Below are positions 21,790 through 55,739 of a stretch of DNA of 64,000 bases, one piece after another. The notes beneath the pieces are model-generated. The model worked only from the letters and a program-made list of their open reading frames with translations. It had not been told where the DNA came from and ran no database searches. This stretch comes from Pocillopora verrucosa. Lineage: Eukaryota; Cnidaria; Anthozoa; Scleractinia; Pocilloporidae. The DNA lies in contig NC_089320.1 of the NCBI RefSeq assembly GCF_036669915.1, forward strand, positions 22,303,948-22,367,947, given 5' to 3'. Positions within the stretch are counted from its first letter, which is position 1. Every line of letters begins with the position of its first letter. Both the position numbers and the translations under genes were made by a program.

Positions 21790-24679
21790 TCATAAAGTGC
21801 CTCCAATCCAGAACTGAGTCGTTGCATTTAGGCTTGAAGTACATCGAAATTTGGGATTGACCACTTTATAGAGACCAAAGTTGTCCTCCTCGTGTACGGC
21901 TTGGTTTGAAATGCTTCCACTGAAATCACAGCCATTCTGGTAGGAACTATCGATATGGAGAGGATAAGCTCCTTTTTTATACCAGGTCCTTGTTGTGCAA
22001 TTCACACACTCATTTCCCCGGATGTTCACATATTCGTAAGGTCGACAGTCATAGGTCACTATGGGTACCTGTCTAATGATGTCGAAGTCTTCAAGCGAGG
22101 CTCTCAGGTAATCTGTACGTACGGTGCCATCTGTCTCGTATCGGCAAGTAGCTCTCCAGTGAGTCGAGTGATTTCTGAGCCAAAGGAGGTAGAGTCGTTC
22201 CATGAGGTAGGCCTGCCAATTTGGAGCATCACCGCTGATGGCTCGGTAGTCATCGTAAAATACGATCGGCTGCAGACAGAAAATGTGAACTTCAGTTGGT
22301 AAATATCACTAACATATTCCTGAACTTAAGATTCTTGCAGCTTGAAACAAAAGTTAGGCTGAACTTTTTATAACGTACCCTTCTCAATTTGAAGCATTAT
22401 TGCGAATGGCACTCGAGTCTGGATAGTCATTATGTATAAACAAGATTTCTTTTGTCGACAAAATTATTCGAAGACATTATTAGTGACGAAAGCTTCTAAA
22501 AAGAGAGACGAACTTAACTTACGAAGAAAAAAAATTCAAAATGAAGGCATTTCATTTTTGAGGGAACTTAATTTTCGCATCCTCGTTATTTCTTTATGGC
22601 TTTAAAATCTGAGCAAAATTACCCTAAAAAGGTGGTTGTTGGACAAATTGAATGACTCAATCAGGTTCCATGCGAACCCAGGCTCAGAATCAAAATCACA
22701 GAATACTTGGAAAGTTTGGTTTCGGTCATCAATGACGGTGTACAATCCAGAGGCGGTGAACCTGGCTGCTTTATAATCCTGACAGCTTCTTCTCAGCTGA
22801 ATCTCGCAGTGTTTACCAACAAACGGTACAGGACAGGAACAGTTGTACCGAACATTTGTGGGCTGACAGATCTCAGAGCAGGTTCCTCCATTGAGACACG
22901 GATTGTTCCTGCAGCAGCCATTGCTACACGTGACATCATCAGTACATGGAATAACGTGGTTAGGAGCCTTATGTGCAAAAATTGGTAAAACAATAAAACA
23001 ATTTTTCATCATTATATCATTATTGTGATCCTAATTTGTGTTTGACAGAAAAGTGTTGCATTAACCTAAGCTTTTTCTTTTATCAAGTTTGCAATTTGCA
23101 AGCTTTTACGGTTGCTCCCGAAATCTCTAATGCCTCAATCTGGTAGCCTTTTTTAAATACCGACCATGCCATAATGATCCATTAAAATTACCCCTTTTTC
23201 AATATTTAAACGAGCGAGATCACACAATGCCAAATATTTCCTAAAACGTATCAATGAGTCTTTGATTTTATGTCTCTACTTTCTATAGGTCAATCTCGTT
23301 TATGAAAAAACAATGTTTTACTACGGAATCGGGAAAAAGACGAATTTTTCCATTTCGTAACAAGTTGTTTTTAATATTTTCTCTACGAAATAAATTCGAT
23401 TATATTTTTGAGCTGCGAATGATATTCAAGATATCTTCGCCGGTGGGCAGCTCTTGCACCTACCAGGAACAGTTCCTTATTTGAATGTTTCTCCGTTAGT
23501 TGTCTGATTCCATTTTTGTATTTCGAAAGATTCATCTCTTTTCATGAAAATTTAAGTAACGAGATGTGTTAACTTTCAAGATCCGAATAAAGATGGACCT
23601 TAAAATACAGACTGGGAAAAATAGTTGGTTTTTTTTCGAAGTTTTCAGTTTTGGAAAATAATTTAAATCTCCCATCTTTTTGCAGCTGTTAGCTCGAGCT
23701 CAAAACAGTCGATGTTCTCTGTTTTGAAATACTGGGGAAGACATCAGCATCCACAAGGAGAGGTAGTCATAATTTTAGTTTAGTTTTGCTTCTGATTATT
23801 TGAGAAACTAGAAAAACTCGGAACTCATAATCTTATTGTTAAATAGATTATCAAACAACTTCCATAAACAACTACTGCACTATAATACACCTACGCAATC
23901 ATTTATATCTATTCAACATACTTAACCAATAGACTTAAAGTGCAGCACAGCTGTAAGCATGTATGTACGTTTATACATTTTTTCCATTTTACACTATAGA
24001 CAGTGTGGACCTATTTTTGTAGTTTATCGTCAGCCAGAAGCTTTTTCGGTTTTAACTATAACAAATGAATAGCTAATAGCTCAAGATGAAGACCTGGAAT
24101 CATTCATGGTAAAAATACCTCATGACAGAATAAAGTTTAATATCTTAGTAAATTATTCCCTTTAGCTGTGCTCACTCCCGAGCTATGGAATTAAACACTC
24201 GAAGAGAAATTCCATATTTACGCCCACACATGTATTATTTTCTATTGAACACCTTTTATCTAATGATAAAGAGTACAAAGATGGGTCGTAAAAATACTAT
24301 ATGGCATTGAGAAATGTAGTACCTTAGTGGAGTATTCCCTCCGCAGTACGTAGTAAACGCTTCCGTGGATGTCTTTCAGAGAGTTCTTGTTTGTAAAATG
24401 GCTGCCTTCGTTTAACTCGCAGTATTTGGTGTTGTTCTTGACCTTGTAGTTTATCGACGAACATCGACAGTCGTTGATACACCACAGATAGCACTGCTGT
24501 GGGTTTGAAGTGACAGAGTTGTGGAAGACATGGTCAACAAGCTCTTTATTATGATCGGCGCCTTGTCGCTCATCAAAAGAGATCTTTTCACATTTTAGAG
24601 GGGAGCAGTAGCCCCTAACTTGAAAAGCTGACAAGAGTATACAAAAAAACTTTGCAACCATCATTTTTATCGTTTTCAC
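21790..24679 (-). CDS. Array copy 1: secreted PAN/apple + EGF + fibrinogen-like protein, intact (393 aa)
   Basis: Exons 24679-24323, 22967-22623 and 22269-21790 (357, 345 and 480 nt) are joined by phase-0 introns with AAG|GTACTA and AGG|GTAATT donors and CATAAG and CTGCAG acceptors. Exon 1: signal peptide (MMVAKFFCILLSAFQVRGYC) and a PAN/apple-type domain (CYLWCINDCRCSSINYKV, YCELNEGSH). Exon 2: an EGF-like domain (CCRNNPCLNGGTC, NCSCPVPFVGKHC), then the start of a fibrinogen-like module (SCQDYKAARFTASGLYTV, FQVFCDFDSEPGFAWNLIES). Exon 3: the remaining Cys-rich module (HWRATCRYETDGTV, YVNIRGNECVNCTTRTWY) ending FWIGGTL. It is probably secreted, and several Asn-X-Ser/Thr sites are present. The combination resembles coral proteins annotated as skeletal-organic-matrix-protein-5-like, a resemblance from memory; a lectin or adhesion role is inference. 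Confidence 0.85.
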
Positions 24680-24730
24680 ACCCCAGCCGGGGAAACGATG
24701 TTTCTCAAAATGTCCTTCTTGAGCAGATTA

Positions 24731-24786
24731 CTTATTTAAGATATCGCCCATCCCTATGTGTCAATAAACGTGTAAGAAACCAATCA
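24731..24786 (-). promoter_or_regulatory. Array-copy 1 promoter: TATA-like box and CCAAT box
   Basis: On the minus strand ATTGG (plus CCAAT at 24780-24784) lies about 45 nt upstream of CTTAAATAAG (24731-24740), which is about 50 nt before the ATG. The same pair with the same spacing precedes copy 5 (51388-51441), copy 6 and the relic at 55.6 kb. Copies 2 and 3 have a diverged AATTTAGACAT version. Confidence 0.55.
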
Positions 24787-24799
24787 AACGAGTTCACAG

Positions 24800-26060
24800 A
24801 AAATGACTTCACAATATGAATATTCAAGGCTCAGAAAAGTAATGTACTTGATATTTGCCTGGTGTGGCGCACAAATAACATGATGCAGATGTTCTACTTA
24901 GGACATAACTTCAAATTTCTTCCCTCCAAAACTGCGAATGTGTTGTTTAAAACGCATGTGGGACAACCTAGGCTAGTTTTTCTGAGTTTTTGCGGATAAA
25001 GTTTACTCTTAAATCAAGCCCATTGATGGTGACTATATAAACCTCATGTCAAATTCAGTTGTTTCTGATTTTCATCCAGTTAAACCATACTGACGACACT
25101 TTTATTCGCATCAAATTTTATATATATTTTTTGAAAATAGGAAGAAACGCGAGAGAAATTTGACTCACGAAGGAGGAAGAAACATTCGACTAGCACTCGT
25201 GTTTCTCCCTACACTTCTTTCGTGCTCAAGCCGCTTCCTACGTACTTTTCAACACAACGTGTTGAGCACAGTCAAGGCTTCTTTATTTGTATATAAATAA
25301 CACAGTCTGGTAGAACTGCATGCGTAATGCAAAACAGGGTGAGTACATTGAATGCTTAATACCTTTTATAATTTGGTTTCTCTTCAGTGCTGGCAAAACA
25401 AACAAGACAATATCTACATATGAATTTGAATTATTAATTATTGATATCCTGACGCCAAATAAATGATAGCCTCCACCGTACAAGTTCATCAGATGCAAGC
25501 TCAGTTTAAAGTGTGAGGAGAATTCAGCTGTTTTATTTATGAAGCAAACTTGTTACGCTCACTGTCTACTAGCAAGGACTTGCGAAATAATATCACACTT
25601 TTGAAATCATTGCTTTGTTCATATTAGAGATTAAAATACAGCAAGACATTAAGAATACAAAAGGATAAAATGCGGGGGAACTACTGGCAAGGAACCCCTC
25701 AGGAGAATGCTTTTATCATATCAGAGTAAGACAGTAAGACATTGAGAATACAAAAGGATAAAATGCGGTTGATTTTGATATCAATTAATGTCCAACTATG
25801 CTCCTAAATGAAAACCAGACGATAGAGTTAATTACAAACAGCATTTTGGCGAAATTTTTAGCAACGGAATATCTGTAGCAGACAACCAGTCCAAGATTTC
25901 TCGATTATGTTGTACAGAAAAGAAATATAATATTCAATCGGTTCCTAGAATTGAGATTTTCGCTGAGTGTTTGAAAAAATATAACGATATGGCAAATTAT
26001 CTCCAGTCTATTCAAGGCCAATAACTGAGGCAAAACTGATAATAATTAATGTTAGAATTT
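24800..26060. repeat. Spacer module U (copy 1), upstream of array copy 1
   Basis: The module is repeated at about 51440-52480 and 55740-57920, keeping the order of blocks: GAAACACTCG...CGTGTTTCTCC, CTCAAGCCGCTTCCTACGT, GACGCCAAATAAATGATA, GACATTGAGAATACAAA, TTTAATATTCAATCGGTTC. On the minus strand all three keep a short coding-looking stretch (K.RRKRLEHER). No gene is supported here. Confidence 0.65.
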
Positions 26061-26329
26061 CCTTCGACAATTTCGTGTTACCGTTGCACCCACCACCTTA
26101 AATAGATTTTACAGAAAATAGATATGAAGGGTTAAAAATTAAAAAGAGGAACTTATGGCTCCAGCTGTAATTTTGTGTGTAAAGTTTATGGCCGGCGTCT
26201 TCACATGAGTGGATTTTCAGGGAGAACAGAGGAGGGGTGGGGGGTCAGTCGTCGCCAACAGAGTATTGAGGGAAGACTATAGGAAATTGACTGCCAATTA
26301 AGAGGGATCATTAGAATATTACAGAGACT

Positions 26330-26930
26330 TTAGAAGATCAAGTAAATTTTATTGTGACACAACTAACAAATTGACATTGTCTCAACAGACCCCCTCGCTC
26401 TTATTTAAATTAAAAAAAAGTTGCATATTTACAAGCATAACTAAAAAATCTCGCAAATATGTTTTATACCTGCAAACTGCAGGGAATTTGCAGACAAATT
26501 TGGGGTTTGTATTTAAGTCGGTGAATATTTTTTGATCGTTCTTACAACTGTTGAAAATATCTTGTGCTAATGAGAGTTGAATACAGATCACTCGAGAGAG
26601 CTCTATTGATGTTAAATCTTTTGATATGCAAATTCACATTTCTAATTAATCAGAGTCACTTTTCAGTCATGTTTGGACTGAAAAAGACTAAAGAACGTAA
26701 GAGAAGAGTAAAATAAATTTAAAATTACAGAGATTACCGTAGAACGAAAGTGTCACGCAGAGTTTCACTATCATGTGTTTTGTTAGCTGATATTCTGGAC
26801 AATGATTTTACGACTTTATTATATTTTTATTACATATTAATAATTCAGCACTGGATCCACGAGCCTGTTTCTCGAAGGTTCTGCTAACTAAAAGTAAAGC
26901 TGTTCTGTTTTCCTTCAAGATAGGGGTTCC
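26330..26930. repeat. Spacer module V (copy 1)
   Basis: Matches 42720-43260, for example GTTGAAAATATCTTGTGCTAATGA, GATCACTCGAGAGAGCTCT, TATGTTTGGACTGAAAAAGA and TTCCTTCAAGATAGGGGTTCC. A partial copy lies at 58240-58400. It separates array copies and contains no supported gene. Confidence 0.65.
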
Positions 26931-28227
26931 AAAAGAAAATGAAAATTATGAGCCACGGATTGATACAACCAAAATCCCCAGACCCTCTCCCCCTCTCCCT
27001 TTATACGATAATAATGACCAGTCTTTTCTATTTCTTGAGTGAGTTCTATTCTAAAAATTGGTGCAAAAGGTCTACTGAAATCACAATTTATACGGTCTGC
27101 TTGTTCCACTCCACGATATGCTGCTGAACAAAAAGAGAAAAGCTGTCGGTTCGATCTGCTGTGTTGTTTGGTCAGTGAACTACTTGCCGTCGATCCAGAA
27201 CTGAGTCGTATCACTCAGGTTTGAGGTACAACGGAATTTGGGATTTGTAGAAGCGTACAACCCAAAGTTGTCCTCGTCATTTTTGGCTGGGTCTATCTTA
27301 CTTCCGTCAAATTGGCAAGATCCGCGATAGGAACTGTCCATATGCAAAGGAGTAGGTCGTTTATACCATGTCCGTGCTGTACAATTCACACACTCATTTC
27401 CCCGGATGTTCACATATTCGTAACGACGACAGTCATCGGTCACTATGGGAACGTCTCTGATGATATCAAAGTCTTCAAGCGAGGCTCTCAGGTAATCCGT
27501 ATATACTGTGCCATCTGTGTCGTATCGGCAAGTAGCTCTCCAGTAAGTCGAGTGATCTCTGAGCCAAAGGAGGTAAGGTCGTTTCATGAGGTAGGCCTGC
27601 CAATTTGGAGCATCACCGCTGATGGCTTGGTAGTCATCGTAAAATACGATCAGTTGCAGACAGAAAATGTGAACTTCAGTTGGTAAAGATCACTTTCACA
27701 TCCATGAACTTAAGATCATTGCAGCTCGAAAAAAAAAATTAGGCTGAACTTTTTATAACGTACTCTTGTCAATTTGAAGCATTACTGCTGATGGCACTCG
27801 AGTCTGGATAGTCATTATGTAGAAATCAAAGTGCTCTGTGAGCAAACTCGTGAATTGACACATGATTTTTTAGATTATGTTTAATGTTATCTGGTTTAGG
27901 GAATTTTGTGGTTGATTGTCATATCTAAAGTACGAGCAGTAGTTCAGTGTTCGCTAATGTAGCAAAGAAACAAAGTAACTTCGGGATAAGAAGGCATTAC
28001 AATTGAAATGATCATGCCATTACATTTGACAAGGGTGGATGATGTGATGTGTTTTAACGTCTATCATTTTTGTTTCTGGTTCAAAAGAAAACGTTGGAAG
28101 TAAATGTGGGTGAAAAGTAAAATTTACCGTCTATCATTGTAAATATTAGAAAATCAAGGCAATACTGTCTTAATGAAAACATTAACGATTCCCTCTTTAT
28201 CAAACGGGAACGAGTTTTGAGTGATAT

Positions 28228-28380
28228 AACTGAGCCAAGGACTCAGAATCCTGTGTTCTGATTGGCTACCTGAGCGGGCATGATGGGCCCACTCTCGCCC
28301 GCTCGGGATTCCCCGTATTGATCCCACGCAAGAAAACTTACAAGGTTCGTAACTTTTGGACAATGTTTGCATATACATAG
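28228..28380. repeat. Dispersed GC-rich interspersed repeat (copy B)
   Basis: This is the counterpart of 3770-3930. This copy keeps an internal palindrome, GAGCGGGC...GCCCGCTC (28271-28302), and inserts into intron 1 or the spacer of array copy 3's neighbourhood without disrupting an exon. Confidence 0.5.
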
Positions 28381-29149: not shown

Positions 29150-29272
29150 GCTTATTACATTTAAGACCGAACGTTATTACATTTAGGGCTTTATTACATT
29201 TAGGACCAAATATTATTACGTTTAGGACTTTATTACATTTAGGACAGTTATTACATTTAGGACTTCAACATC
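29150..29272. repeat. Degenerate minisatellite (TTATTACATTTAGGAC)n
   Basis: About six to seven units of roughly 16-28 bp built from TTATTACATTTAGGAC. It directly replaces the 3' two thirds of exon 2 of array copy 2. Confidence 0.8.
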
Positions 29273-30769
29273 TCTGAGCAGGTTCCTCCATTAAGACACA
29301 GATTGTTCCTGCAGCAGCCGTTGCTACATGTGACGTCAGTAACACATGGAACGTTAGGAGCCTCATGAACAAAAATTCATTAAAATAAAAATTAATCTTC
29401 TATCACCAGTTTATCTTTATGGTATTATTTTAATTTAACATATTTAAAAAGTGTTGCATTAATCATCAAACGTGCGGTGAAGTGGGTGACGTTCGAATTC
29501 TCACGGAGAGCTTAACGTAATTGTTTTGATTCCTCTTTGATATGTTGTAAACCGAAAAAAATCATTACTTGTTTCAATAGAAAATTTCATCATCCTTAAG
29601 ACAAGAATAAAAGAGGTACGCATCTTGCAAGTAAGGACCAATACCAGGGTTATTCTTCAAATTTTGAGTTTTCTGCAAATTACATTAAAATTTTAACGTA
29701 TTTTTCGGCAGCCATTATTTCGGGTTTAAAATAAACAGTGTACCTAACATATAAATAATTTTGCGGATGGGTTCAGTATCCACGTAGAAGAACAATTTTG
29801 ACAACATCAAGAAGTTTATCATAGTACATTGTTTTTATTGTGGAGATTTTTTGCAATCTATCGTCAATTTCTATTTAAAACAATTTTAATAGAGCCAAGA
29901 CAATTAAAAATATATCAAAAAAAAAAAAGATATGTCTCATATCCCGGCTGGACGAAGACTGGCGATCAGGCTTCGTAAAAACAGCTTTTAAAAATATAAA
30001 ATTTAGTACCTTAGTGAAGGTTTCTCTTCGCAGTATGTAATAAATAGATCCTGGATTGTTTACTAGAGAGTTCTTTCCAGTAAAATGGTTGCCTTCATTC
30101 AACTCGCAATATTTGGTTTCGTTCTTGACTTTGTAGTTTATCGACAAACATCGACAGTTGTTTATACACCACAAGTAGCACTGAGCTGGGTTCGATATAA
30201 CAGAATTGTGGAAACATGGCCAACAAGCTCTTAGTTCTGCTTCGCATGTTGTTGCTCATTAAAAGTGATCTTTTGACATTTTCCTGTGAGGCAGTCTCCC
30301 TTAACTTGCCAAACTGAAATGAATAAAAACACATACTTCTTATCCAACATTTTACCTTTCACACCCCACTCGAGAAATCGATGTTTCTCGTGATGTCTTT
30401 CTTTAGCAGATTACTAATTTAGACATCGCCTTTCCTTTAGAAGTTAATTGAGGTGTGAGGAACCAATCAAATCAGTTTATGGAAAAGACATCACAATAGG
30501 AACAAACAATTTTCAGGAAGTTTGCCAATCATGGCATGCAATTATTTTTCCAATTGTTTTTATTAAGACCACCTCGCTTTACTGTATATATCACCCAAGG
30601 GTAGTTCAAAAGTATTTCTGCAAAATTTTTAGGACGTTAAGTCTTCCAAAGAGAATATCAACACCTGATATTCTCTTGGTTTTGTCTTACAGTAAGAGGC
30701 CCCCAAAAAAGGTTAGAAAACGTATACGCTTTTCATTATAAATGAAGAATTAAATTGGGTTTAAGGTTG

Positions 30770-32514: not shown

Positions 32515-32620
32515 GATTACGAAATTTTTAGCCGGCATCCGACGCAGTTTTAGGAGGAAACAGACAAAAACTGCCCATAGAGTTTACACCCAGCGTTTTC
32601 ATTAGAAGGTGAATGAGCAC
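32515..32620. repeat. Dispersed repeat, copy 2 of 3
   Basis: See the first copy at 20785. This one ends with AGCGTTTTCATTAGAAGGTG and is followed by about 200 nt of unassigned sequence. Confidence 0.6.
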
Positions 32621-33179
32621 GGGGGCTTATTTTATTGAACCCCCTTTGTCTCACATATCAAACTTATTTCCCTTAAGCGCGAACATTTGCCCTAATTGGC
32701 GTCCAGACTGGCGCGGACAACGCTTTCCCTACTGCGCTTGCGGATTAGAGTATTCATCGCATTAGTGACAATGCTAGGGAAAGGAGAGTCCCAAAACGAT
32801 ACTCCGACGAGGTCTTTTCAACGCAACTTTCATTCAGAAAGAAGACAAGAAAACCAACGACCTTAAACTTTCATCCTGTCGTTGTGACAGCCGTAGACAA
32901 AGTCGCAAAGCGAGGGAAAATTCACAACGTTGGAATCTTTGGAATCTTTTTTTGTGATACTTGCAGCTTCTCTCTGGGTCGTCGAGCTCTTCCTCAAGTT
33001 TCTGTCGCTTGGTAATTTCATTCTCCAAAGATTCTTCGAGCGCTCGTTTTCAATAAGGTAATTATTAATCTCGTGATAAAATAACTTGACAGAATAAGTT
33101 TGGTCGCGCCATTTGTCAGTGAGCCTCGATCTTGACACCGAAGCCTCCACTTTTCCTCTTTGCTCCCTTTAGCTTTGCA

Positions 33180-34057
33180 CACATGGTTCCAATATTTTCC
33201 AAAAGACATTTTTTATTTGGTTGTCGACGACGATGCCTCTAATACCCGTTTGTTGCATGATTTTCTCCGCAACTGCAGCGAATGTAAATTCGCCACTTCC
33301 CACTGCATTCTCTTCGGCAGTTGTGTAGAGAACGTAGTTGAAAAATTGATAAACACGACCGCTAATAACGGTCTACGCATCAACATAGAAGCTAACAAAC
33401 AAATAATCAACTTCCTAGACGTCACATTTAACCTTAACCAAAGCACTTATCAGCCATTCACAAAGCCGAATACTTCACTGCGATATGTTCACCGCGAGAG
33501 CAACCACCCGCCTATCACCATAAAGAACATTCCCGCCGGCATCAACAAACGACTGTCGTCCCTATCATCTAACAAAGCATCCTTTGACCAAGCCGCCCTT
33601 CCATATCAGAAAGCACTCGACGAAAGTGGATACCACTACACACTACAGTACGAACCAGCCAAAACAAGCAAACGGGAAAACCGAGAACGCCATAACATCC
33701 TCTGGTACAACCCTCCTTTTTAGCAAGAACACCAGCACCGACATCGGACACAAATTCCTCGCCCTAGTAGACAAAGATCACAAGCTCAGAAAAATCTTCA
33801 ACCGAAAAATCATCAAGATCAGTTACAGCTGCCTGAACAACACGAAACAAATAATTGACGACCATAACAAACGCATCCTAACCGTATCTATACAGACTGA
33901 TGATACTGCCGCCGCCGCTACCATTAATAACAAAACATGCAACTGCCGACAAAACAATTCAACACATAGTTGCAGCTTTCAGACGGAGAATCCAACAATT
34001 AACTTATTAAAAGTTGCACTGCTTTTCAATAAAGCTAACTCACAAATTCAACAGTAA
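33180..34057 (+). mobile_element. Penelope-like element RT fragment, frameshifted
   Basis: The first frame (to 33723) reads LINTTANNGLRINIEANKQ, INFLDVTFNLNQSTYQPFTK, SNHPPITIKNIPAGINKRLS and ILWYNPPF, the C-terminal RT/thumb region of PLEs. One extra T in the run at 33717-33721 creates TAG. The next frame resumes with SKNTSTDIGHKFLALVDKDH and IKISYSCLNNTKQIIDDHNK, then CNCRQN. The GIY-YIG domain expected after the Cys-rich linker is absent, replaced by the tail repeat shared with 21555-21650. Upstream of about 33320 similarity fades. The copy is dead. Confidence 0.75.
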
Positions 34058-37907: not shown

Positions 37908-38605
37908 TAAATGAATGAATGAATGAAAAACTTTATTCATGTGTCAAACTCGATCTAGCCGAGGGTAAGAAACCCTCTACTAATAGGGGACACCTAGACT
38001 CAATACAATAAGTTAAAATGTGACTAATTTAACTATTTACAATAGATAAAATTTAAATACGTCATTGACATTAAGAACTAAAAGTTTAAACTACCTTATT
38101 TAATACTCATTATTAAATCAAGTAAACACATAGAGCGTTCCCTGAGCCAGATAATTGTTCATGTGCTACATAGAACACAGTTCTCACAATCGTATTCTAA
38201 TTTAGACGAAAGGTTAGTTAAACAGATCTGTTTTTTAAAAGATTGTAGAGAAGGTGAGGTTTTTATGTTAGTTGAAAGTCGATTCCACAGCAAAGGGCCA
38301 ATATATCTTAGGGAATGTTTTCCATAGGTAACAGTATTAAATCTAGGAATGTGGAAATCTGCGCCTCTGAGGTTGTATGTGGAACTTTTCAATGAAAACA
38401 AATTTTTGACAATCGGTGGGCACAGATTATGCCTCACTTTAAACATTAAACAAGTTATATCCTGTAGCCTTCTTTCATAAAGAGATTTTAAATTAGCCTT
38501 CTTAAGTAATTGCTCATATGTGGATTTACTATCTCTGAAGACTGCACGCAAACCCCTCTCCTGAGTGCGTTCAAGTGAAGTTTTCAAGTGCGTTCATAAT
38601 GAAGG
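37908..38605 (-). mobile_element. 5'-truncated LINE 3' end with (TTCA)n tail
   Basis: The minus-strand frame 38587-38159 reads LERTQERGLRAVFRDSK, YEQLLKKANLKSLYERRLQD, CLMFKVRHNLCPPIVKNLF and GPLLWNRLSTNIKTSPSLQS. This is the well-known C-terminal tail of non-LTR reverse-transcriptase ORFs (L2/CR1/Jockey-like). A 3' UTR follows, then AATAAAG and TTCATTCATTCATTCAT at 37912-37930. It is truncated at the 5' end, as is usual. The frame is still open, suggesting a fairly recent insertion. Confidence 0.75.
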
Positions 38606-39471: not shown

Positions 39472-41307
39472 TCACAAAGTACCTCCGATCCAGAACTGAG
39501 TCGTTGCATTTGAGCTTGAAGTACAACGAAATTTGGGATTCACCTTCGAATACAATCCAAAGTTGTCCTCGTTTTGTACGGCTGCGTTTGTCGTGTTTCC
39601 GTCGAAATCACAGTCTGCTTGTTTAGAACTGTCGGTATGCAGAGGAAAATGCCCTTTTTTATACCAGGTTTTCATTGTGCAATTCCGACACTCATTTCCC
39701 CGGATGTTCACATATTCAAACGGTCGACATTTAGGTACATCATCGGAGGGTACGTCACTGATGATGTCAAAGTGTTCAAGCGAGGCTCTCAGGTAATCTG
39801 TATATACGGTGCCATCTGTGTTGTATCGGCAAGTAGCTCTCCAGTGAGTCGAGTGATTTCTGAGCCAAAGCAGGTTAGGTCGTTTGATGAGGTAGGCCTG
39901 CCAGTTTGGATCATCACCGCTGATAGCTTGGTAGTCATCATAAAACGTGACATTTTTCTGCAGACAGATAGGGTCGACTTCAGTTGATGAAGATCATAAT
40001 TATATTTATTAATTACATTAAGATCATTGCAACTAGAAACAAAAATTAAACCGGCTAAGATAGGCCTGACAATTTGGAGCATTACCGCTGATGGCCTTGC
40101 ATCTGGATGATAATAATAAAAATACGATTCCTCCTGTTGACAGAATCGGTTGTCAATATTAGTTATCATAACTTCCAAAAGAAACCAACGTAGCTGACGA
40201 AGCAAGCAAATCAAAGGACCAATGTTAAAATGAAAAAATAATTCATTTTGGAGGTACTAAAATAATAATCACATCCTCACCACCTTCTCTGCATAAATAA
40301 CTAATGATAAATGGTCTTTTCTCAGGAGAATTACCTGGAAAAGATCTTTGCTGGATAAATTAAAGGACTCAATCAGGTTCCAAGCGAAACCAGGCTCTGA
40401 ATCAAAATCACAGAACACTCGGAAAGTTTGGTGGCTGTCATCAATGAGTGTGAACAGTCGCGACCAGCGGAACCCGGCTAATTTGTACTCCTGACAGCTT
40501 CTTCTCAGCCAACTCTCGCAGTGTTTTCCAACAAACGGCAGTGGACAGGAACAGCTGTATCGAACACTTGTGGACTCACAGACCTCAGTGCAGGTTCCTC
40601 CATTAAGACACGGACTGTTTCTGCAGCAGCCATTGCCACAATTGACGTCACCAGTACAAGGAACGATATTATTATGACCCTTATATACAAAATTGATTAA
40701 AAAAGAATATGTTTTTATCGCTATGTTATTCTTATGATTTTAATTTGAATGTGAGTTTAATATTGGCATGAACGTGTCTTTTCTCACCAATTTATAAAAG
40801 CATGTCCTCTTAATTTTCAAGAAGTCTTTTGGTTTAATGCATTCCGCGTTGGTCCATGAAAACTATCCTTTTTCAATATTATGAACCAGTGAGATCACCC
40901 AATGGCGAATAATATCTGATGTCAGTGAAGCAAAGGGCTAAGAGTTAGTTACATTCTACCTTGGTCGAGTCAATCAGTATCAGTTCAATGCTTTCCAAGT
41001 ATCTGACTGCACAATTGGAATTGGGTAACCGGAATCTCATGGAAGCTCAGATTTACCCACTCTCTATGCAATTGTTCTCTTTCTCCTTGAAATTCGTTGG
41101 AGTTTTAATTCTTTTTGATGACATTTTGATATCTTCAAAAAACGGAAAAGTTTTATTTCTTTTTTTTTTTTTTTTTATAGAAATTTAGCACTCACATGAA
41201 GAAACATTTTGAGGGGTAAAGAAAGTAATTATAATGTATTTTTTTTGCTTTAATGTAATAATCTTGCACCGATTATTTCAACAATCTATCGTCAGGTAAA
41301 AATCTTA

Positions 41308-41354
<47 letters not shown>

Positions 41355-42447
41355 GGTTTCTCTTTGGCCTCCATAGTTTAAATAAAAGAAAGGAATTTCA
41401 TTCGAAAAACAGAATTTGCTATAATTAATTTTCCATCCTATACTATTCGTTACTGATTACTCGTTCAAAGGCTCTTTTCTTGGATTTTGTCAGCCTTTTA
41501 GGTGTTGATTGGACTCAAAGGGCCCCTTCAGGGATTTTGTTGCTAATTTGCCCTTTCAGGCTCCAAAGGCCTTGTTTTGGGATTTTGGTACGGTTTACAG
41601 TAGTAGGTAAGAGTGGCTCTATCCTTTTCTAAGTTGCTCTATTCTTCAGTTGCTCTATTCGTTTAAACAAGTTAATTTTTTTAGTTTTTAGTTTGTATCT
41701 CTCGTATTTTGTCCATTATTTTATTTGTAGATTGGTTTTTTTTTCGATATTTTTCGCTTTGTTGATTTTGTTTTTTGTCATCTTTTTATTAACACCACTT
41801 TCTGCTCTTTCACGCGATTTTGTATCTTATTCATTAGTTGTCACCTGTAATTACGTAATCACTAGCACCTCGATCTTATTTAAAGCTCTTTTTTATTCAA
41901 AAGTAACAAATAACTGAAGAAGGTCTTTGACCGAAATGTTTTTAAATTTTTTACCTTTTTTACGTCAGAAGTTGTCCATCCTCGCATTTTTTTTAACTCG
42001 CTCTATATATACATATACATATATATAAACACTTTTTATCTCGATCAAGATGAAGGCTACAAAGATGCTTTGTAAAATACTATATGACAAAATAAAATTT
42101 AGTACCTTCGTGGAGTATTCTCTCAGCAGTACGTAGTAGATGCTTCCAAGGATGTTTTTCAGAGAGTTCTTGCTGTTTAAATGGCTGTATTTGTTCAACT
42201 CGCAATATTTGGTTTCGTTTTTGACTTTGTAGTTTATCGACAAACATTGACAGTCGTTTATACACCACAAGTAGCACTGTGCCGGGTTTGAAGTGACAGA
42301 CCTGTGAAAAACATGGCCGACGAGCTCTTGGTCCTGTTTGGCATGTTGTTGCACATTAAAATGGATCTTTTCACATTTTCCTGTAAGGCAGTCTCCTTTA
42401 ACTCGCAAAACTAACATTAATATAAAAAAAAACTTTACATCCAACAT
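39472..42447 (-). CDS. Array copy 3: secreted PAN + EGF + fibrinogen-like protein, intact (390 aa)
   Basis: Exons 42447-42106, 40679-40335 and 39957-39472 (342, 345 and 486 nt) all join in phase 0 at consensus sites (AAG|GTACTA, CAG|GTAATT; TATAAG, CTGCAG). The second exon reads HNNIVPCTGDVNCGNGCCRN, then SPCLNGGTCTEVC, CSCPLPFVGKHCES, SCQEYKLAGFRWSRLFTLID and FRVFCDFDSEPGFAWNLIES. Exon 3 reads YDDYQAISGDDPNWQAYLIK, CRPFEYVNIRGNECRNC and FWIGGTL. The start MLDVKFFFILMLVLRVKG gives a signal peptide; an upstream in-frame ATG at 42477 is less likely by comparison with relatives. It is the most diverged intact copy (NCGNG for CSNG; FRWSRLF for FTASGLY), which points to functional divergence rather than recent duplication. 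Confidence 0.85.
41314..41352. repeat. (TA)n microsatellite in intron/spacer of array copy 3
   Basis: About 19 uninterrupted TA dinucleotides lie within intron 1 of copy 3. Confidence 0.95.
41911..41947 (+). ncRNA. Hammerhead-like motif, weak stem I
   Basis: CTGAAGA (core), AGGTC-TTT-GACC (perfect stem II), GAAATGTT follow the hammerhead order CUGANGA/stem II/GAAA. Flanks for stem I are A/T only (AATAA/TTTAAA) and pair poorly. It probably marks the end of another PLE-type element, in intron 1 of array copy 3. Confidence 0.4.
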
Positions 42448-45262: not shown

Positions 45263-46492
45263 CTATTTGCCTCCGATCCAAAACTGAGTCGTATCAACCA
45301 GGTTTGAGGTACAACGGAATTTGGGATTTGTAGTAGCGTACTGTCCAAAGTTGTCCTCGCTATATTTAGCTGGGTCTACCTCGCTTCCGTGAAATTCGCA
45401 AGATCCGCGCCCGGAACTGTCCATGTGGAAAGGATAACTTCCTTTCTTATACCATGTCATTGCGGTACAATTCACGCACTTATTTCCTCGGATGTTCACA
45501 TATTCGTAAGGTCGACAGACACCTGACACCGTGGGTACGTCTCTGATGATACCAAAATCTTCAAGCGAGGCTCTCAGGTAATCTGTATAGACGGTGCCAT
45601 CTGTGTTGTACCGGCAAGTAGCTCTCCAGTGAGTCGAGTGATCTCTGAGCCAAAGGAGGTAGGGTCGTTTTATGAGATAGGCCTGCCAATTTGGGGTATC
45701 ACCGCTGATGGCCTGGTAGTCATCGTAAAATGAGATGTTCTTCTATAGACAGAAAATTTCAACTTCAGTTGGTATAGATCAATATCACATCCGAGAACTT
45801 AAGATCTTTGTAGCTTGAAACAAAAATTAAGCTGAACTATTTTGTTACGTACTCTTGTCAAATTGAAGCGTAACCGCTGATGGCGCATGAGTCTGGATAG
45901 TCATTATGTATAAAACAAGATTTATTTTGCTAACAGAATTATTCGAAGACATGGGAGTGACGAAAGCTTCTAAGAAGAGAGACGAACTTAACATACGAAA
46001 AAAAATTCAAAATTATGAAGGCATTTCCCATTTAGGAGAACACAATTTTCACATCCTCGTTATTTTCTTCAGACGAGAACGTACAGGATATAGTTCTTAT
46101 AGCTTTAAAATCTTAATAAAATTAACTGAAAAAGATGTTTGTTAGACAAATTGAACGACTCGATCAGGTTCCATGCGAACCCAGGCTCAGAATCAAAATC
46201 ACAGAATACTTAGAAAGTTTGGTTTCTGTCATCAGTGACGGTGTAAAATCCAGAGGCGGTTGACCCGGCTGCTTTATAATCCTGACAGCTTCTTCTCAAC
46301 TGAATCTCGCAGTGTTTACCAACAAACGGCACAGGACAGGAACAGTTGTACCGAACACTTTTGGGCTCACAGATCTCATTGCAGGTTCCCCCATTAAGAC
46401 ACAGATTGTTCCTACAGCAGCCATTGGTACACGTGGCGTCATCAGTACATGGAACGATGCTAACTACATCCTTCCATGTACTGATGACGCCT
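45263..46492 (-). pseudogene. Array copy 4: EGF + fibrinogen-like exons only, pseudogene
   Basis: Exon 3 (45742-45263) is fully open (YDDYQAISGDTPNWQAYLIK; YVNIRGNKCVNCTAMTWY; FWIGGK). Exon 2 (46492-46126) retains CCRNNLCLNGGTC and VPFVGKHCEIQLRRSC but has TAA at 46210-46212 (QTF*VFC). Its donor is mutated (CAG|TTAATT), and its 5' end is an inverted duplication that introduces another stop right after the acceptor. I find no exon 1 between 46.5 and 48.8 kb. Confidence 0.87.
46436..46492. repeat. Perfect 20-bp inverted repeat at the exon 2/intron 1 edge of copy 4
   Basis: The arm 46436-46455 (GGCGTCATCAGTACATGGAA) and its exact reverse complement 46473-46492 flank a 17-nt loop. One arm is the normal start of the EGF exon; the other is an inverted copy lying where the splice acceptor should be. 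Confidence 0.92.
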
Positions 46493-48625: not shown

Positions 48626-48811
48626 CATCCAAAGATATCCCACATTTTAAAACGCTCTAGTCATCAAGATTTAAGCTTATTCGAATATTTTGGCGTGTTA
48701 TAAAGACAAAATTTCTTGAGGTATATTAAATAATGTCTGCACTTTGTTTTCAGGTAAAAAAAGTAAAAGTTCAAGTCAGTTCAGATTATAGTTGAAACAG
48801 TGGTCATGAGA

Positions 48812-51335
48812 TCACTCAGTCCCTCCAATCCAGAACTGCGTCGTTGCATCTGAACTTGAAGTACAACGGAATTTGGTGTTTATTATAGCGTATAACCCAA
48901 AGTTATCCTCCGATGCTATGGCCGCGTCTGTGTCGCTTCCATCAAAATCGCAAGATCCGGTAAGGTCACTGTCGATATGTAAAGGCCAAACTCCTTTAAA
49001 ATACCATGTCCGTGCGGTACAATTCATACACTTATTTTCCCGGATGTTGACGTAATCGTATGGCCGACAGGTTTCTACCACCGTGGGTACATCTCTGATG
49101 ATGTCAAAGTCTTCAAGTGAGGCTCTCAGGTAATCCGTATACACGGTGCCGTCTATGTTGTATTGACAAGTAGCTCTCCAGTGAGTCGAGTGATCTGTAA
49201 GCCAAAGAAGGGAAGGTCGTTCGATGAGGTACGCCTGCCAATTTGGGACGTCACCGCTGATGGCTTGGTAGTCATCATAAAACACGATGTGATTCTGCAG
49301 ACAAAATAGGAGAGTTTAAGCCGATAAAGAAGATCTTAGGTAATATCCACATTTTAACCGACTGCTTCCACTCCCACCCAAGCCGGTTGTTTTCATTGGA
49401 AAATAATAAACAGAAAACTCTAGTCAATGAGTGTTAGGAAGACTACCTGGAAAAGGTGTTTGTTGGACAAACTGAATGACTCAATCAGGTTCCAAGAAAA
49501 CCCAGGCTCTGAATGGAAATCACAGAATACTTGGAATTCTTTATTGCTGCCATCAATAACAGTGAACAACCCAGAAGAGTTGGATCCAGCCTCTTAGTAA
49601 TCCTGACAGCTTCTCCTCTGTTGAGTCTCGGTGTGATTTGAGTCATTTTTAGCTGTAAACAATCCAGACGAGTTGGATCCGGCTGCTGAGATGTCTCGAT
49701 TGGTTTGATTTCTTTCCACTTGAATTTCGCAATATTTCCCAGCAAACGCCACCGGACAAGAGCAGTTGAATCGAACACTTGTAGGTTCGCAGAGCTCAAT
49801 GCAGGTTCCTCCATTGAGGCACGAATTGTTCCTGCAGCAGCCATTGCTACATGTGACGTCATCAGTACACGAAGCAATGTGGTTAGGAGCCTTATATGCA
49901 AAAATTGGTAAAACAATAAAACAACTTTTCATTATTATATCATTATTATTATTATTATTATCCTAATTTGTGTTTGACAGAATTATGTTGCATAAACCTA
50001 GCTTTTTCTTTCATCAAGTTTGCAAGCAATCACGGTTGCTCCCGAAATCTCTAATGCCTCGCTCTGATAGGCTATTTTCATACCGACCGTGCCGGGGAAA
50101 AAGACGGATTTTTCCATTTTCATGACAATTTCTTTTTAATAAATTCTCTATGAAATAAATTCTATTATATTTTGACCTGAGAATGATGTTTAAGTTATCC
50201 TCGCTGTTGAGCAGCTCTTGCACCTGCAGGAACAGTTGCTTATTTGAATTGTTCTCCTTTAGTTTTCTGATTCCATTTTTGTATTTCATTTTTTTTTCAT
50301 TTCTCTTTTAAGAAAGATGTGTTTACTCTCAAGACCTGAAGGACCTTACAGTACAGACTGGGAAAATAGTATTTTTTTTTTCGAAGCCGTCAGTGTTGCA
50401 CAATAATTTAAATCTTCCAATATCTTTTGCAGCTGTTACCTCGAGCTCAAAACAATAACTGTTCTCTGTTTTGAAAAACTTCTGGGGAAGACATCAGCAT
50501 CTACAAGGATAGGTAGTCATAATTTGTTTTAGTATTGCTTCTGATTATTTGAGAAACTATTTTATGGGTCACCTTGCTTAGAAAACTCGGAAATCGTAAT
50601 CTTTTTGTCCCAAATAGAATTAAAGTGCAGCACAGCTGTAAGCATGTATATATATATTTATACATTTTTTTACATTTTGCAATCACTTTGTTCGCAGTAT
50701 GGACCTATTTTTTTAGTTTATCGCCACGCAGCAGCTTCTTCGGTTTTAAATATAACAAATGAGTGGCTGATATCTCAAGATGAAGACCTGGTATCATTCA
50801 TGGTAAAAATACCTCATGACATAATAAAGTTTAACATCTTAGTAAATTCCTCTATTCTTCTCTGTGCTCACTCGTACGCCCGCCTATGTATTATTATCTA
50901 TGAAACACCTCTTATCTCAAGATGAAGGCTACAAAGATGGGTTGTAAAAATATTCTATGACATTGAGAAATTTAGTACCTTGGTGGAATACTTTCTCCGC
51001 AGTACGTAGTAAACGCTTCTGTGGATGTTTTTCAGAGAGTTCCAGTTTATAAAATGGCTGCCTTCGTTCAACTCGCAGTATTTGGTGTTGTTCTTGACCT
51101 TGTAGTTTATCGACAAACATCGACAGTCGTTGATACACCACAGATAACACTGCTGTGGGTTTAAAGTGACAGAGTTGTGGAAGACATGGCCAACAAGCTC
51201 TTTATCATGTTCGGCGTCTTGTTGCTCATCAAAAGAGATCTTTTCACACTTTCCAGTGGAGCAGAAGCCTTTCACTTGAAAAGCTGAAATGAGTATACAA
51301 AAAAACTTTGCAACCATCATTTCTATCGTTTTCAC
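48812..51335 (-). pseudogene. Array copy 5: nearly intact PAN + EGF + fibrinogen-like gene with one premature stop
   Basis: Exons 51335-50979, 49890-49447 and 49294-48812 keep consensus splice sites and phase 0. Exon 1 reads MMVAKFFCILISAFQVKGFC and CYLWCINDCRCLSINYKV. Exon 3 ends FWIGGTE. Exon 2 is 444 nt instead of 345. The extra 99 nt (33 codons, in frame) duplicate the segment around SCQDY, giving two AGSNSSGLFT blocks. Between them CAG GAT TAC TAA GAG replaces the Lys codon found in relatives. Apart from this TAA everything is open, so it may be a very young pseudogene or a sequencing error could be involved. Confidence 0.8.
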
Positions 51336-51387
51336 ACCCCACCTGGGGAAGCGATGTTTCTCATAATGGCCTTTCTTGAGCAGATTA

Positions 51388-51441
51388 CTTATTTAAGATA
51401 TCGCTCATCCCTATGCGTCAATCAACGTGTAAGAAACCAAT
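51388..51441 (-). promoter_or_regulatory. Array-copy 5 promoter (TATA-like and CCAAT)
   Basis: CTTAAATAAG (plus 51388-51397) and ATTGG (plus CCAAT 51437-51441) have the same spacing and flanks as in copy 1, consistent with duplication of gene plus promoter. Confidence 0.5.
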
Positions 51442-52500
51442 CAAATGAGTTCACAGAAAATAACTTCCCAATATGAATTTTCAAGGTTCAGAAAAGTAAC
51501 AAAAACAAGTGATAAAATGAATGTTTCCAATTATGGCACACAAATAACATGATCCAGATGTTCTACTTAAGACATTACTTCACATTTTTTTTCCTTCCAA
51601 AACTGCGCACATGTCGTCGAAAACACATGTGGGATACCATAAGTTAGTTTTTCTGGGTTTTTGCGGATAGTGTTTACTCTTAAATCTAACACATTGATAA
51701 TGACTATATCAACCCCTTGTAAAATTCAGTTCTGTTTCTGATTTCCATCCAGTTAAACCATACTGACGGCACTTTTATTCGCATCAAATTTTAAATATTT
51801 TTTGAAAATAGAAGAAAGGAGAAACACTCGACTTGCACTCGTGTTTCTCCCTAACCTTCGTTCATGCTCAAGCCGCTTCCTACGTGCTTTACAACACAAC
51901 TTGCTGATCACAGAAAAGGCTTCTTTATTTGTTTTTAAATAACACACAGGTAGAACTGCGTGCGGAATGCAAAACAGGGTGATTACGTTGAATGCTTAAT
52001 ACCTTTTATAATTTATTTTCACTTCAATGTTGGCAAAACAAACAAGACAATATCTACATATGAATTTGAATGATTAACTATTGATATCTTGACGCCAAAT
52101 AAATGATAACCTTCACAGTATGAGGAGAATTCAGTTGTTTTATTCATGAAGCAAACTCGTTACGCTCACTGTCTGCCAGCAAGGACTTGCGGAATAATAT
52201 CACTTTTGAAATCATTGTTTTGCTCATGTCAGAGATTAAAATACAGCAAGACATTGAGAAAACAAAAGGATAAAATGCGGTTGATTTTGATATCGAGTAA
52301 TGTCCGACTACATCTACTAAATAAAAAGCAGGCGATAGAGTTAGTTACAAATAGCATTTTGACGAAATATTCAGAAACAGAATTTTTCTGTATTACACAA
52401 CCAATCCACAATTGCTCGATTTTGTTGTACAGAAAAGAAATTTAATATTCAATCGGTTCTTAGAGTTGAGATTTTCGCTAAGTGTTCGAAAAAAAGAGAA
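51440..52500. repeat. Spacer module U (copy 2)
   Basis: Counterpart of 24800-26060. The minus-strand stretch 51947-51753 encodes KARRKRLEHERRLGRNTSAS and related residues, the longest open version of the short conserved frame in the three copies. No complete gene is present. Confidence 0.6.
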
Positions 52501-52610
52501 TATGGTAAATTTTATTGTGACACATTCGACTAACAAATTGACGTTGTCTCAATAGACCCATATCATTGACCTTACACACTCGCTCTAAATCAAAACAAAA
52601 TTGCATATTT

Positions 52611-52654
<44 letters not shown>
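52611..52654. repeat. (TA)n microsatellite at the exon-3 deletion breakpoint of array copy 6
   Basis: About 22 TA units. Immediately right of it, at 52655, the sequence resumes with CATCAGTTGGCAAAGATCACTATC, which in the other copies lies just upstream of exon 3. Confidence 0.92.
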
Positions 52655-52656
<2 letters not shown>

Positions 52657-53350
52657 TCAGTTGGCAAAGATCACTATCATATTCGTGAACTTAAGATCAC
52701 TGCAGCTTGAGACAGAAATTAACCTGAGTACTATTATCAAATTGAAGCATTACTGCTATGACGCTTGAGTCTGGATAGTCATGTATAAAAACAATATTTT
52801 TTTGTTGACATAATTATTCGAAGCATTCATTAGTAACGAAAGCTTCTATGAAGAGAGACGAACTTAAAATACGAAGCAAAAATTCAAAATGATAAAGGCA
52901 TTTCCTATTTGAGGGCACTTAATTTTCACATCCTCGTTATTTTCTGTAGACGAGAAAGAACAGGACATAGTTCTTTATGGCTTTAAAATCTTAGAAACAT
53001 GACTTGAAAAAGATGTTTGTCGGACAAACTGAGAACAATTATATCAGGTTCCATGCGAACCCAGGCTCATAGTCAAAATCACAGAATACTTGGAAAGTTT
53101 GGTTTCTGTCATCAAAGACGGTGTACAATCCAGAGGCGGTGAACCTGGCTGCTTTGTAATCCTGACAGCTTCTTCTCAGCTGAATCTCGCAGTGTTTACC
53201 AACAAACGGTACAGGGTAGGAACAGTTGTGCTGAACACTTGTTGGCTCACAGATCTTATTACAGGTTCCTCCATTGAGACACGGGTTGTTCCTGCAGCAG
53301 ACATTGGTACACGCGACGTCATCAGCACATGGAACGGTGTGGTTAGGAGT

Positions 53351-53484
53351 CATGACAGGACGGATAATGCATGCACTGTAAGTACCTCCCGTTGTTCCAT
53401 ACAAAGCCTTAGAAAAGTTTTCTAAGGCTTTGTATAGGACAACGGGAGGTACTTACAGTCCACGCGTTTTTCCGTCCTGTCATG
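53351..53484. repeat. ~67-bp-arm hairpin (near-perfect palindrome) at copy 6 exon 2
   Basis: Arms begin and end CATGACAGGACGGA/TCCGTCCTGTCATG and meet at AGAAAAGTTTTCT. Arms are almost identical over about 67 bp, including ACTGTAAGTACCTCCCGTTGT. It replaces about 60 bp of the exon 2 acceptor region. It could be a foldback element or a snapback duplication. Confidence 0.88.
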
Positions 53485-54083
53485 TATAATCATGATCCTA
53501 ATTTGAGTTTAACAGAAAAGTGTTGCATTAACTTAGCTATTTCTTTTATAAGTTTGCAAGCAATCACGGTTGCTCCCGAAATCTCTAATGCCTCGCTCTG
53601 ACAGGCTATTTTTTATACCGACCATGCCATAATGGTCCATTAAAATTGCCCCTTTTTCAATATTTAAACAAGCGAGATCACCCAATGTCAAATATTTGCT
53701 AAAATTGATCAGTGAGTCTTAGATTTTCTTATATCTCTTCTTTAGTTTGATCAATTTCGTTTGGTGAAAACAATCACATGTTTTACCACGAAATCGGGAA
53801 AAGACGTTTTTTTTTTTCCATTTTCGTGACACATTTTTTATAGTGTCTCTACGAAATAAATCCTATTAGATTTCTGACCTGCGAATAATATTCAAGCTAT
53901 CCTCGTTATTGAGCAGCTCTCGCACATGCCAGGAACAGTTCTTTATTTGAATGTTTCTCAGTTAGTTGTCTGATTCTATTTTTGTATTTCATTATTCGAA
54001 AGATTCATCTCTTTTCGTAAAAATTTAAAAATCATGTAATTATCTAATAATGCATTTATTTCTCAGTTAGTTGACTCTCTCTT

Positions 54084-54126
54084 GACTCTGATGATGACTT
54101 CCGCTCAGGTTGTCGAAACGTCAGTC
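54084..54126 (+). ncRNA. Hammerhead ribozyme motif (second PLE family)
   Basis: GACT (stem I), CTGATGA (core), T, GACTTCC-GCTCA-GGTTGTC (stem II: GAC/GTC and CC/GG around a symmetric TT.TT loop), GAA, ACGT, C, AGTC (stem I'). All conserved core positions are present; the single T after CTGATGA is an extra, bulged base. The flanking TCACCACTACCGCCAACAG continues the repeat. Confidence 0.6.
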
Positions 54127-55559
54127 ACCACTACCGCCAACAGTCCTTCTCAGGACTACACTCACCCGGACGATCAAACTACACTGTTAAATGCAATTAT
54201 TTCTATTGACATGTACGCAATGCGGACCTATTTTTATAATTTATTGTCAACAACAAATAAATGACTAATATCTTAAGAAGAAGACCTGAAATCATTCATG
54301 GCAAAAATACCTTATGACATAATAAGGTTTAATACCTTAGTAAATTATTTTCTTCCAAGTTTGAAATAAATGGATCTGAATTATTTATCAAAGACATCTT
54401 GTTTGTAAAATGGCTGCCTTTGTTCAACTCGCAGTATTTGGTGTCGTTCTTGACTTTGTAGTTTATCGACAGACATCGACAGTCGTTAATACAAAGCAGA
54501 TAGCACTGCTGTGGGTTAGCAGTGACAGACTTGTGGAAGACATGGCCGACAAGCTCTTTGTCATGTTCGGCGTTTTGTTGCTCAACGAAAGAGATCTTTT
54601 CACGTTTTCCAGTGAAGCAGAACCCTTTTACTTGAAAGGCTGAAACGAGTATCCAAAAAAACCTTGCAACCATCATTTTTATCGTTTTCACACCCCGCTT
54701 GCTTCTCATAATGTCCTTCCTGAGCAGATTACCTATTTAAGACATCGCCCATCCCTATGTGTCAATCAACGCGTAAGAAACCAGGCAAATGGCTTCGCAG
54801 GAAATAACTTCTCAATATGTATATTCAAGGTTCGGAAAAGTAACAAAAACAAGGGGTAAAATCGACGTGCGTGATATTTTTCGATTATGGTGCACAAAAA
54901 ACTTGATGCAAATGTTCTACTTAAGACTAACTCCCAAACACACAGGCATAACTTCAAATTTCTTCCTTCCAAAACTGCGAACGTGTTATTTAAAACACAT
55001 GTGGGATAACCTGGGCTAGTTTTTTCTGGGTTTTTCGCAGGTAGTGTTTACGCTTAAATCTAGCATATTGATAGTTATTAAATAAACCCCATATGAAATT
55101 CAGTTTTTCAGTTGTTTGTTTCTGATTTTCATCCAGTCAAACCTGATTTAACTGAACACGCTTTGCTGGTGTGAATGGGATTTTAGCCTGATTCTCTGAC
55201 TCTGATTACTAACTCTGAAACGGATGCTTTTACCTACAGTATCGGTATATACGAAGGGGCGCGCTCAAACCTTTGTTTCCATTGCGGAAACGTAACGGCT
55301 AGCACGTGTTTCTGTAAACAGAATCATGACGTTTTACTGATGACATTTAATGATGAAAAATATAAGGTCATACAACCAAACTGGCATAACTGTTAAATTC
55401 TATTCAAATTGTAATGATGTCAGAGCGACTGCGATCATGCTGAGGTCCATCGCGGCTAGCTCATCATAGTAATATCTACTCATCGCAGTGAAACAAGCAT
55501 CAGAATTACATCGTCCGCCTTATAAGTGAACAACTACGAGCTTGCTCTGATATCCACAT

Positions 55560-55700
55560 TTTCCGGTGGAGCAGTAGCCCTTAACTTTAAAAGCTGAAAT
55601 AAGTATACAAAAAAACTTTGCAACCATCATTTTTATCGTTTTCACACCCCAGCTGGGGAAACGATGTTTCTCAAAATGTCCTTCTTGAGCAGATTACTTA
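55560..55700 (-). pseudogene. Array copy 7: orphan signal-peptide exon fragment with promoter
   Basis: The minus strand reads MKTIKMMVAKFFCILISAFK then VKGYCSTG, and is interrupted at about 55560 inside the first part of the PAN domain. The upstream CCAAT (about 55745) and CTTAAATAAG (about 55696) are kept. No PAN core, EGF or third exon follows in the next kilobase. Confidence 0.7.
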
Positions 55701-55739
55701 TTTAAGATATCGCCCATCCCTATGTGTCAATCAACGTGT

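Follow-up and report, generated by a model that had tools for sequence, protein, structure and literature searches.

Conflicting exon histories in a tandem array of PAN-EGF-fibrinogen-like genes of the coral Pocillopora verrucosa

Do the members of a tandem gene array duplicate and decay as whole units, or can their exons have separate histories? The question is raised by a stretch of 64,000 nucleotides of Pocillopora verrucosa (the window; positions 22303948-22367947 of contig NC_089320.1, here called C9), where an earlier note, made from the letters alone, had described a tandem array of three-exon genes for secreted PAN-EGF-fibrinogen-like proteins. When the exons were located by tblastn, the array was recovered with every exon on the minus strand of the window. 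Exon 1 encodes the PAN domain, exon 2 the EGF domain and the start of a fibrinogen-like domain, and exon 3 the remainder of that domain. Comparison of the copies showed that units were duplicated in tandem, that several have decayed, that the intact ones are constrained, and that exon histories conflict. The local birth and death that the note had proposed was thus observed as duplication and loss, and the exon reassortment and the extent of the family were absent from it. Our preferred reading, to which we give a probability of about 0.7, is a birth-and-death array of secreted PAN-EGF-fibrinogen-like genes in which exon blocks have been exchanged between copies. The array itself is of the kind expected in a cnidarian, and the unexpected feature is the apparent exchange of exon blocks.

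Exon histories in two clusters

The exon histories were followed in the cluster on C9, including units outside the window, which are named by the contig and the start of exon 1, and in a larger related cluster at 7.18-7.60 Mb of contig C7, where the genes consist of a PAN exon and a single EGF-fibrinogen exon. In both clusters the exons of single genes differ in history, as judged from the alignments, with the promoter and the PAN exon forming one block, the EGF-fibrinogen part the other, and the junctions in the phase-0 intron.

The synonymous divergence (dS) was compared exon by exon. Between copy 1 of the window and C9:22101312 it was 0.14 in exon 1 (interval 0.06-0.26), 0.46 in exon 2 (0.27-0.74) and 0.49 in exon 3 (0.33-0.72). 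Between C9:22382716 and C9:22101312, exon 1 was saturated (interval from 1.35 upwards), with 0.31 in exon 2 and 0.55 in exon 3. For a control, the pair C9:22101312 and C9:2889985 was analysed, which showed an even dS over exons 1 to 3 (0.12, 0.12 and 0.15).

The non-coding sequence agreed with this. The 170 bases upstream of exon 1 were 86-100% alike in copies 1, 5 and 6 and three outside units, with a weaker likeness in copies 2 and 3. A different promoter was common to C9:22382716 and C9:22393941, and the intron 2 of these two units was of the type found in C9:22101312 and its relatives (80-87%). A separate type of intron 2 was seen in copy 5 and C9:22371644. The alignment of C9:22382716 with C9:22101312 was continuous from where exon 2 begins to 15 bases beyond the stop codon and was limited to the coding sequence of exon 1 upstream of exon 2. 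Taken together, neighbouring copies appear to have swapped their first exon.

The trees of the exons were then tested against each other with the approximately unbiased (AU) and Kishino-Hasegawa (KH) tests in 10 C9 units with all three exons, excluding the partial unit g22373p, and in a subset of seven nearer units. With 10 units, the exon 1 data rejected the trees of exon 2 (AU 0.0004) and exon 3 (KH 0.0004), the exon 2 data rejected the exon 3 tree (KH 0.0009) and the exon 3 data rejected the exon 1 tree (AU 0.026). With seven units, the exon 1 data rejected the exon 2 tree (AU 0.007) and the exon 3 data rejected both other trees (AU 0.045 and 0.010).

Within copy 1, exon 3 appears to be a mosaic itself, with an internal breakpoint. 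It was 91% identical to copy 2 in its first part and 65% thereafter, and the remainder was nearer to copy 3 (77%; permutation p=0.0005). A breakpoint was supported at p<=0.003 in 4 of the 8 exon 3 trios.

In the C7 cluster, 20 of the 32 PAN places listed were fetched, those in which both exons were apparently whole, and 18 of these were used, since L061 and L065 were dropped for a frameshift and a stop. The PAN and the EGF-fibrinogen trees rejected each other (AU 6e-46 and 5e-5). Between L059 and L060, dS was 0.51 in the PAN exon and 0.05 in the other exon, and between L070 and L078 it was 0.08 and 0.78, respectively. The 99% intervals of dS were apart in 31 of 153 pairs, which are not independent of each other, with the PAN exon higher in 27 and lower in 4. 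The identity of L059 and L060 was 82% until just beyond the PAN exon and 95% from a point 36 bases ahead of the second exon, and that of L070 and L078 dropped from 91% to 73% across the intron. The exchange junctions thus lie within the intron.

The promoter and the signal-peptide/PAN exon behave as a single block and the EGF-fibrinogen-like exons as a second, presumably exchanged by crossover or conversion between misaligned copies. An exchange at the intervening intron would keep the reading frame because the intron is in phase 0. Such a reassortment could yield new combinations of head and tail and would place a tail under another promoter. A further-reaching version, in which the tandem arrays of the genome are a germline library of heads (promoter, signal peptide and PAN) and tails (a cnidarian-type fibrinogen-like domain preceded by EGF) diversified combinatorially by ongoing recombination at the phase-0 intron, with new secreted proteins and new pairings of promoter and tail as its products, is tentative and seems to us rather unlikely.

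The Tara Pacific study of two long-read coral genomes describes gene conversion as very rare and tandem copies as simply diverging (PMC10236652). The conflicting exon histories in two tandem clusters of one superfamily stand in contrast to that conclusion. If they are confirmed by sequencing reads and in other species, tandem arrays of corals would be sites where secreted proteins recombine, and trees of single genes would mislead in such families. No report of exon exchange in this family was found among titles and abstract openings of the literature, with preprints excluded and few subscription papers covered.

Domains and possible relatives of the encoded proteins

The domain composition was analysed with Pfam profiles. 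The apple-type domain named in the earlier note was partly supported: exon 1 of copy 1 scored 23.1 bits with PAN_1 (Pfam cut-off 21.4), and that of copy 3 stayed below with 16.6 bits. The single EGF domain was confirmed in exon 2, with 26.9 bits in copy 1 and 26.5 bits in copy 3 (cut-off 21.5). With Fibrinogen_C, exon 2 of the same copies reached 20.1 and 17.3 bits, under the cut-off of 22, over profile positions 1 to 46-47 of 221. Exon 3 of these copies had no Pfam match at E<=1.

To follow the fibrinogen-like part further, exons 2 and 3 were aligned with single-exon relatives, using 13 of 16 sequences (L030, L032 and L036 were excluded as near-duplicates). Together they make up a single domain of some 217 residues, in which cysteines are conserved and the mean column identity is 50%, and 9 of the 13 members matched Fibrinogen_C at E<=0.1 (best 3e-7). 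Used as a query, a profile of this domain matched fibrinogen, angiopoietin, intelectin, tenascin and ficolin in the PDB, all within positions 1-57 of 211; no match went past position 57 among the best 60 of 63 matches. Therefore the module is of full length and mostly unrecognised. The fibrinogen-like assignment of the note was supported for its first part, and the description of the module as shortened is ruled out by a domain of about 217 residues over exons 2 and 3.

Searched alone against the PDB, exon 3 gave 5 matches at E<=10 (best 0.08), taken as chance, and the exon 1 profile gave 2 (best 0.35). AlphaFold2 models had a predicted local distance difference test score (pLDDT) of 33 for exon 3 alone (five window rows) and of 49 for exon 1 (four window rows), too low for a fold search. 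With about 160 residues, conserved cysteines and no recognised sequence relative in Pfam or the PDB, exon 3 is a part for which a structure would be informative.

The signal peptides proposed earlier were also supported. The seven intact proteins have hydrophobic, signal-like N-termini according to a hydropathy count, not a signal-peptide program, and every later 19-residue stretch has a mean hydropathy of at most 0.76, so that no later segment is membrane-like. They contain 25-27 cysteines and 3-7 N-glycosylation motifs and might act extracellularly as disulphide-rich binding proteins.

Judged by published descriptions, USOMP-5 and the coral egg proteins are probably the closest relatives that have a name, which agrees with the coral-matrix resemblance that the note had mentioned, by description and not by sequence. 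USOMP-5 of Acropora millepora (B8VIU6) is described as 256 residues long with a signal peptide (PMC4043741). Its A. digitifera relatives are named EP-like for a segment in common with coral egg proteins (PMC4890752), and an egg-protein transcript of E. ancora that is raised in ovaries was annotated as USOMP-5 (PMC7579821). Sponge matches to USOMP-5 are reported to carry fibrinogen-related subdomains that partially overlap with the conserved region (PMC6824150), and in A. tenuis USOMP-5 is listed among the genes down-regulated in calcite-forming corals (PMC6637933).

On these descriptions, the array could belong to the USOMP-5/EP-like family and encode secreted egg or skeleton proteins serving as yolk, egg coat or matrix, to which we give somewhat less than an even chance. 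The likeness to USOMP-5 and the egg proteins (B8VIU6, AGO04749 of E. ancora and BAE94663 of G. fascicularis) consists of secretion and the fibrinogen-related subdomain (PMC6824150), and is joined by the segment common to the egg proteins and by the label of the ovary transcript. The window proteins, however, have 388-390 residues with PAN and EGF domains against the 256 of USOMP-5 (PMC4043741), so that, in a comparison by description only, one domain is in common at best, and the relatives in the genome that are near USOMP-5 in size sit on contigs C3 and C5. None of five short peptides from the family turned up in a text search of the literature.

Tandem immune families such as the fibrinogen-related proteins (FREPs) of snails and the sea urchin 185/333 genes are reported to diversify by recombination. 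They resemble the present array in the tandem arrangement and the exchange of segments, but differ in their domains. An immune or cnidocyte family of the fibrinogen-related type, diversified for recognition or venom, is a possibility, though one that we regard with some doubt. It would fit a large tandem family with exon exchange, and the FREP family of Nematostella is described as vastly expanded, with several members in mature cnidocytes (PMC12549020). Against it, the ratio of nonsynonymous to synonymous substitutions (dN/dS) of the intact genes was at most 0.52, without gene-wide positive selection, and the likeness to fibrinogen is confined to the first part of the domain. The likeness to fibrinogen, angiopoietin, ficolin and the intelectins covers the first 57 or so of 211 positions and includes two cysteines and a WTL-like stretch, whereas the remaining 150 or so positions have no sequence match and Fibrinogen_C stays under its cut-off in copies 1 and 3. 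A role in the extracellular matrix or the egg seems to us somewhat more likely than one in immunity.

The CniFL proteins are likewise a cnidarian family with a fibrinogen part, and their definition combines Collagen, Ig and Fibrinogen domains (PMC5094078). When the six exons of copies 1 and 3 were scanned with Pfam, neither Collagen nor Ig was matched at E<=1, and membership under this definition was rejected.

Whole-unit duplication and decay

The conflict between the exons might be only apparent, if whole units duplicated and decayed and the exon differences came from substitution rates or short alignments. Several observations speak for such a plain birth and death and weigh against an exchange of exon blocks. 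Duplicated blocks are colinear across introns, dS between copies 1 and 3 was even across the exons (0.51, 0.51 and 0.39), and the intervals overlapped between copy 1 and C9:2889985 (0.17 in exon 1 and 0.41 in exon 3). Several tree tests were compatible with agreement: with 10 units, the exon 2 data accepted the exon 1 tree (AU 0.054) and the exon 3 data the exon 2 tree (AU 0.19), and with seven units, the exon 1 data accepted the exon 3 tree (KH 0.36) and the exon 2 data both other trees (AU 0.44; KH 0.15). In 4 of the 8 exon 3 trios there was no breakpoint (p>=0.27). In addition, the exons are short, and mosaic units might arise from misassembly. Plain birth and death would, however, need several-fold differences in the silent rate in some pairs only, and in C7 in both directions, and the non-coding sequence switches partner too. 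We therefore consider it improbable and prefer the exchange of exon blocks.

The selection on the intact genes was analysed by dN/dS between copies, a check suggested in the earlier note. For the whole coding sequence (Nei-Gojobori) it was 0.22-0.52 in each of the 21 pairs that the seven intact C9 genes form, with a highest upper bound of 0.81, showing that the intact genes are constrained, without gene-wide positive selection. In the C7 cluster the median was 0.26 for the PAN exon and 0.56 for the EGF-fibrinogen exon. A functionless relic array, as which five broken members out of seven in the window might be taken, was rejected as very improbable with these values well under 1 in every pair, and a 159-codon exon would stay open by chance with a probability of only about 2e-5 at the base composition of the window.

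Layout and extent of the array

The copies in the window were found with tblastn E values of 1.7e-124 to 1.1e-10, with similar values for a few exon 2 remnants. Three reversed queries gave 18 matches at E<=10, and the array matches are beyond chance because the best of these had only E=0.51. The earlier count of two intact copies out of six was right in that only copies 1 (388 residues) and 3 (390 residues) are open, but there is a seventh, fragmentary copy and the array runs past both ends of the window; the five other copies or fragments are broken (Table 1). Likewise, the proposed sizes of about 119, 115 and 160 codons were correct for exon 2, while exon 1 has 114 codons and exon 3 has 159 or 161. 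The introns are in phase 0, as described. The junctions of copies 1 and 3 read AAG|GTA and then AGG|GTA or CAG|GTA, followed by AG acceptors, and the exon boundaries were identical in five intact units outside the window.

Table 1. Exons and associated regions of the array (window positions, except for the last five rows, which give exon 1 starts on C9)
Feature	Position	Strand	Remarks
Copy 1 exon 1, signal-like N-terminus and PAN	24323..24664	-	114 codons, intact
Copy 1 exon 2, EGF and fibrinogen-like start	22623..22967	-	115 codons, intact
Copy 1 exon 3, remaining fibrinogen-like domain	21790..22269	-	159 codons and stop, intact; apparent two-source mosaic
Copy 1 intron 2	22270..22622	-	resembles intron 2 of copies 4 (86%) and 3 (75%), not of outside units
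Copy 1 upstream region	24665..25675	-	common to copy 5 (about 82% over a longer alignment) and outside units
Copy 2 exon 1 and some upstream sequence	29974..30410	-	frame change, TAA
Copy 2 exon 2 remnant	29260..29421	-	ends in minisatellite 29152-29265
Copy 2 exon 3	27180..27653	-	open
Copy 3 exon 1	42106..42447	-	114 codons, intact
Copy 3 exon 2	40335..40679	-	115 codons, intact
Copy 3 exon 3	39472..39957	-	161 codons and stop, intact
Copy 4 exon 2	46126..46467	-	ends approximate; one TAA
Copy 4 exon 3	45263..45742	-	open
Copy 5 exon 1	50979..51320	-	open
Copy 5 exon 2	49447..49893	-	ends approximate; internal partial duplication, TAA
Copy 5 exon 3	48812..49294	-	open
Copy 6 exon 1	54346..54676	-	reading frame lost close to end
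Copy 6 exon 2	53015..53353	-	reading frame lost close to end
Copy 7 exon 1 fragment and upstream region	55556..55693	-	
Copy 7 exon 3 fragment	58848..58979	-	contains stops
Complete outside unit	22101312	+	exon boundaries checked
Complete outside unit	22371644	-	exon boundaries checked
Complete outside unit	22382716	-	exon boundaries checked
Complete outside unit	22393941	-	exon boundaries checked
Complete outside unit	2889985	-	exon boundaries checked

Exon 1 of copy 4 was not found by tblastn within the window, and neither was exon 3 of copy 6, where the homology stops beside an (AT)21 repeat at 52613-52654. Simple repeats thus lie at two truncations, the second being the minisatellite at exon 2 of copy 2, and they may have promoted breakage. 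The upstream region and the start of exon 1 are contained in a local tandem duplication at 54601-56266, about 965 bases in size (84.5% over 716 bases), so that copy 6 is preceded by two stretches of promoter-like sequence.

The spread of the family was determined in the genome assembly of 353 Mb and 52 contigs, where all match counts are lower bounds. Exon 3 of copy 3 as a query gave 89 matches, 58 of which are free of stops and span 130 or more of 162 residues, and matches to the family were located on contigs C1 to C14. On C9 there are at least 18 separate exon 3 places, at least 16 of them at 22.10-22.40 Mb. The unit at C9:2884500-2891000 (L049, with the exon 1 start at 2889985) is intact with three exons and lies about 19 Mb away from the cluster; judged by exons that are 97-99% identical to those of the broken in-cluster unit L044, it is a recently moved copy. 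At C9:22128923-22129915 (L042:3024-4016), exon 2, intron 2 and exon 3 form one open frame of 332 codons, although there is a TAG in its exon 1. A separate array at 18.55-18.80 Mb of contig C8 (L001-L004 and L006-L008) contains 23 PAN matches, the strongest of the genome. None of the 150 genome matches scored with PAN_1 lies in the window, whose PAN exons score lower.

Some other sequences were noted. On the minus strand at 7091-14515 of the window there are long frames rich in Arg, Ser and Asp and in Pro, resembling an SR-type nuclear protein by reading, with no Pfam match at E<=0.01. Frames that look retroelement-like by reading are found at 33136-34057 (+), 19364-20055 (-) and 38159-38593 (-), and the three stretches tested had no Pfam match at the same threshold; in total, nine reading frames of the window other than those of the array were searched with Pfam, and none had a match at E<=0.01. 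On contig C30, COX1 occurs three times at spacings of 17,407 and 17,411 bases, with TGA within the frame, and this spacing of about 17.4 kb indicates that the mitochondrial genome was assembled as a concatemer.

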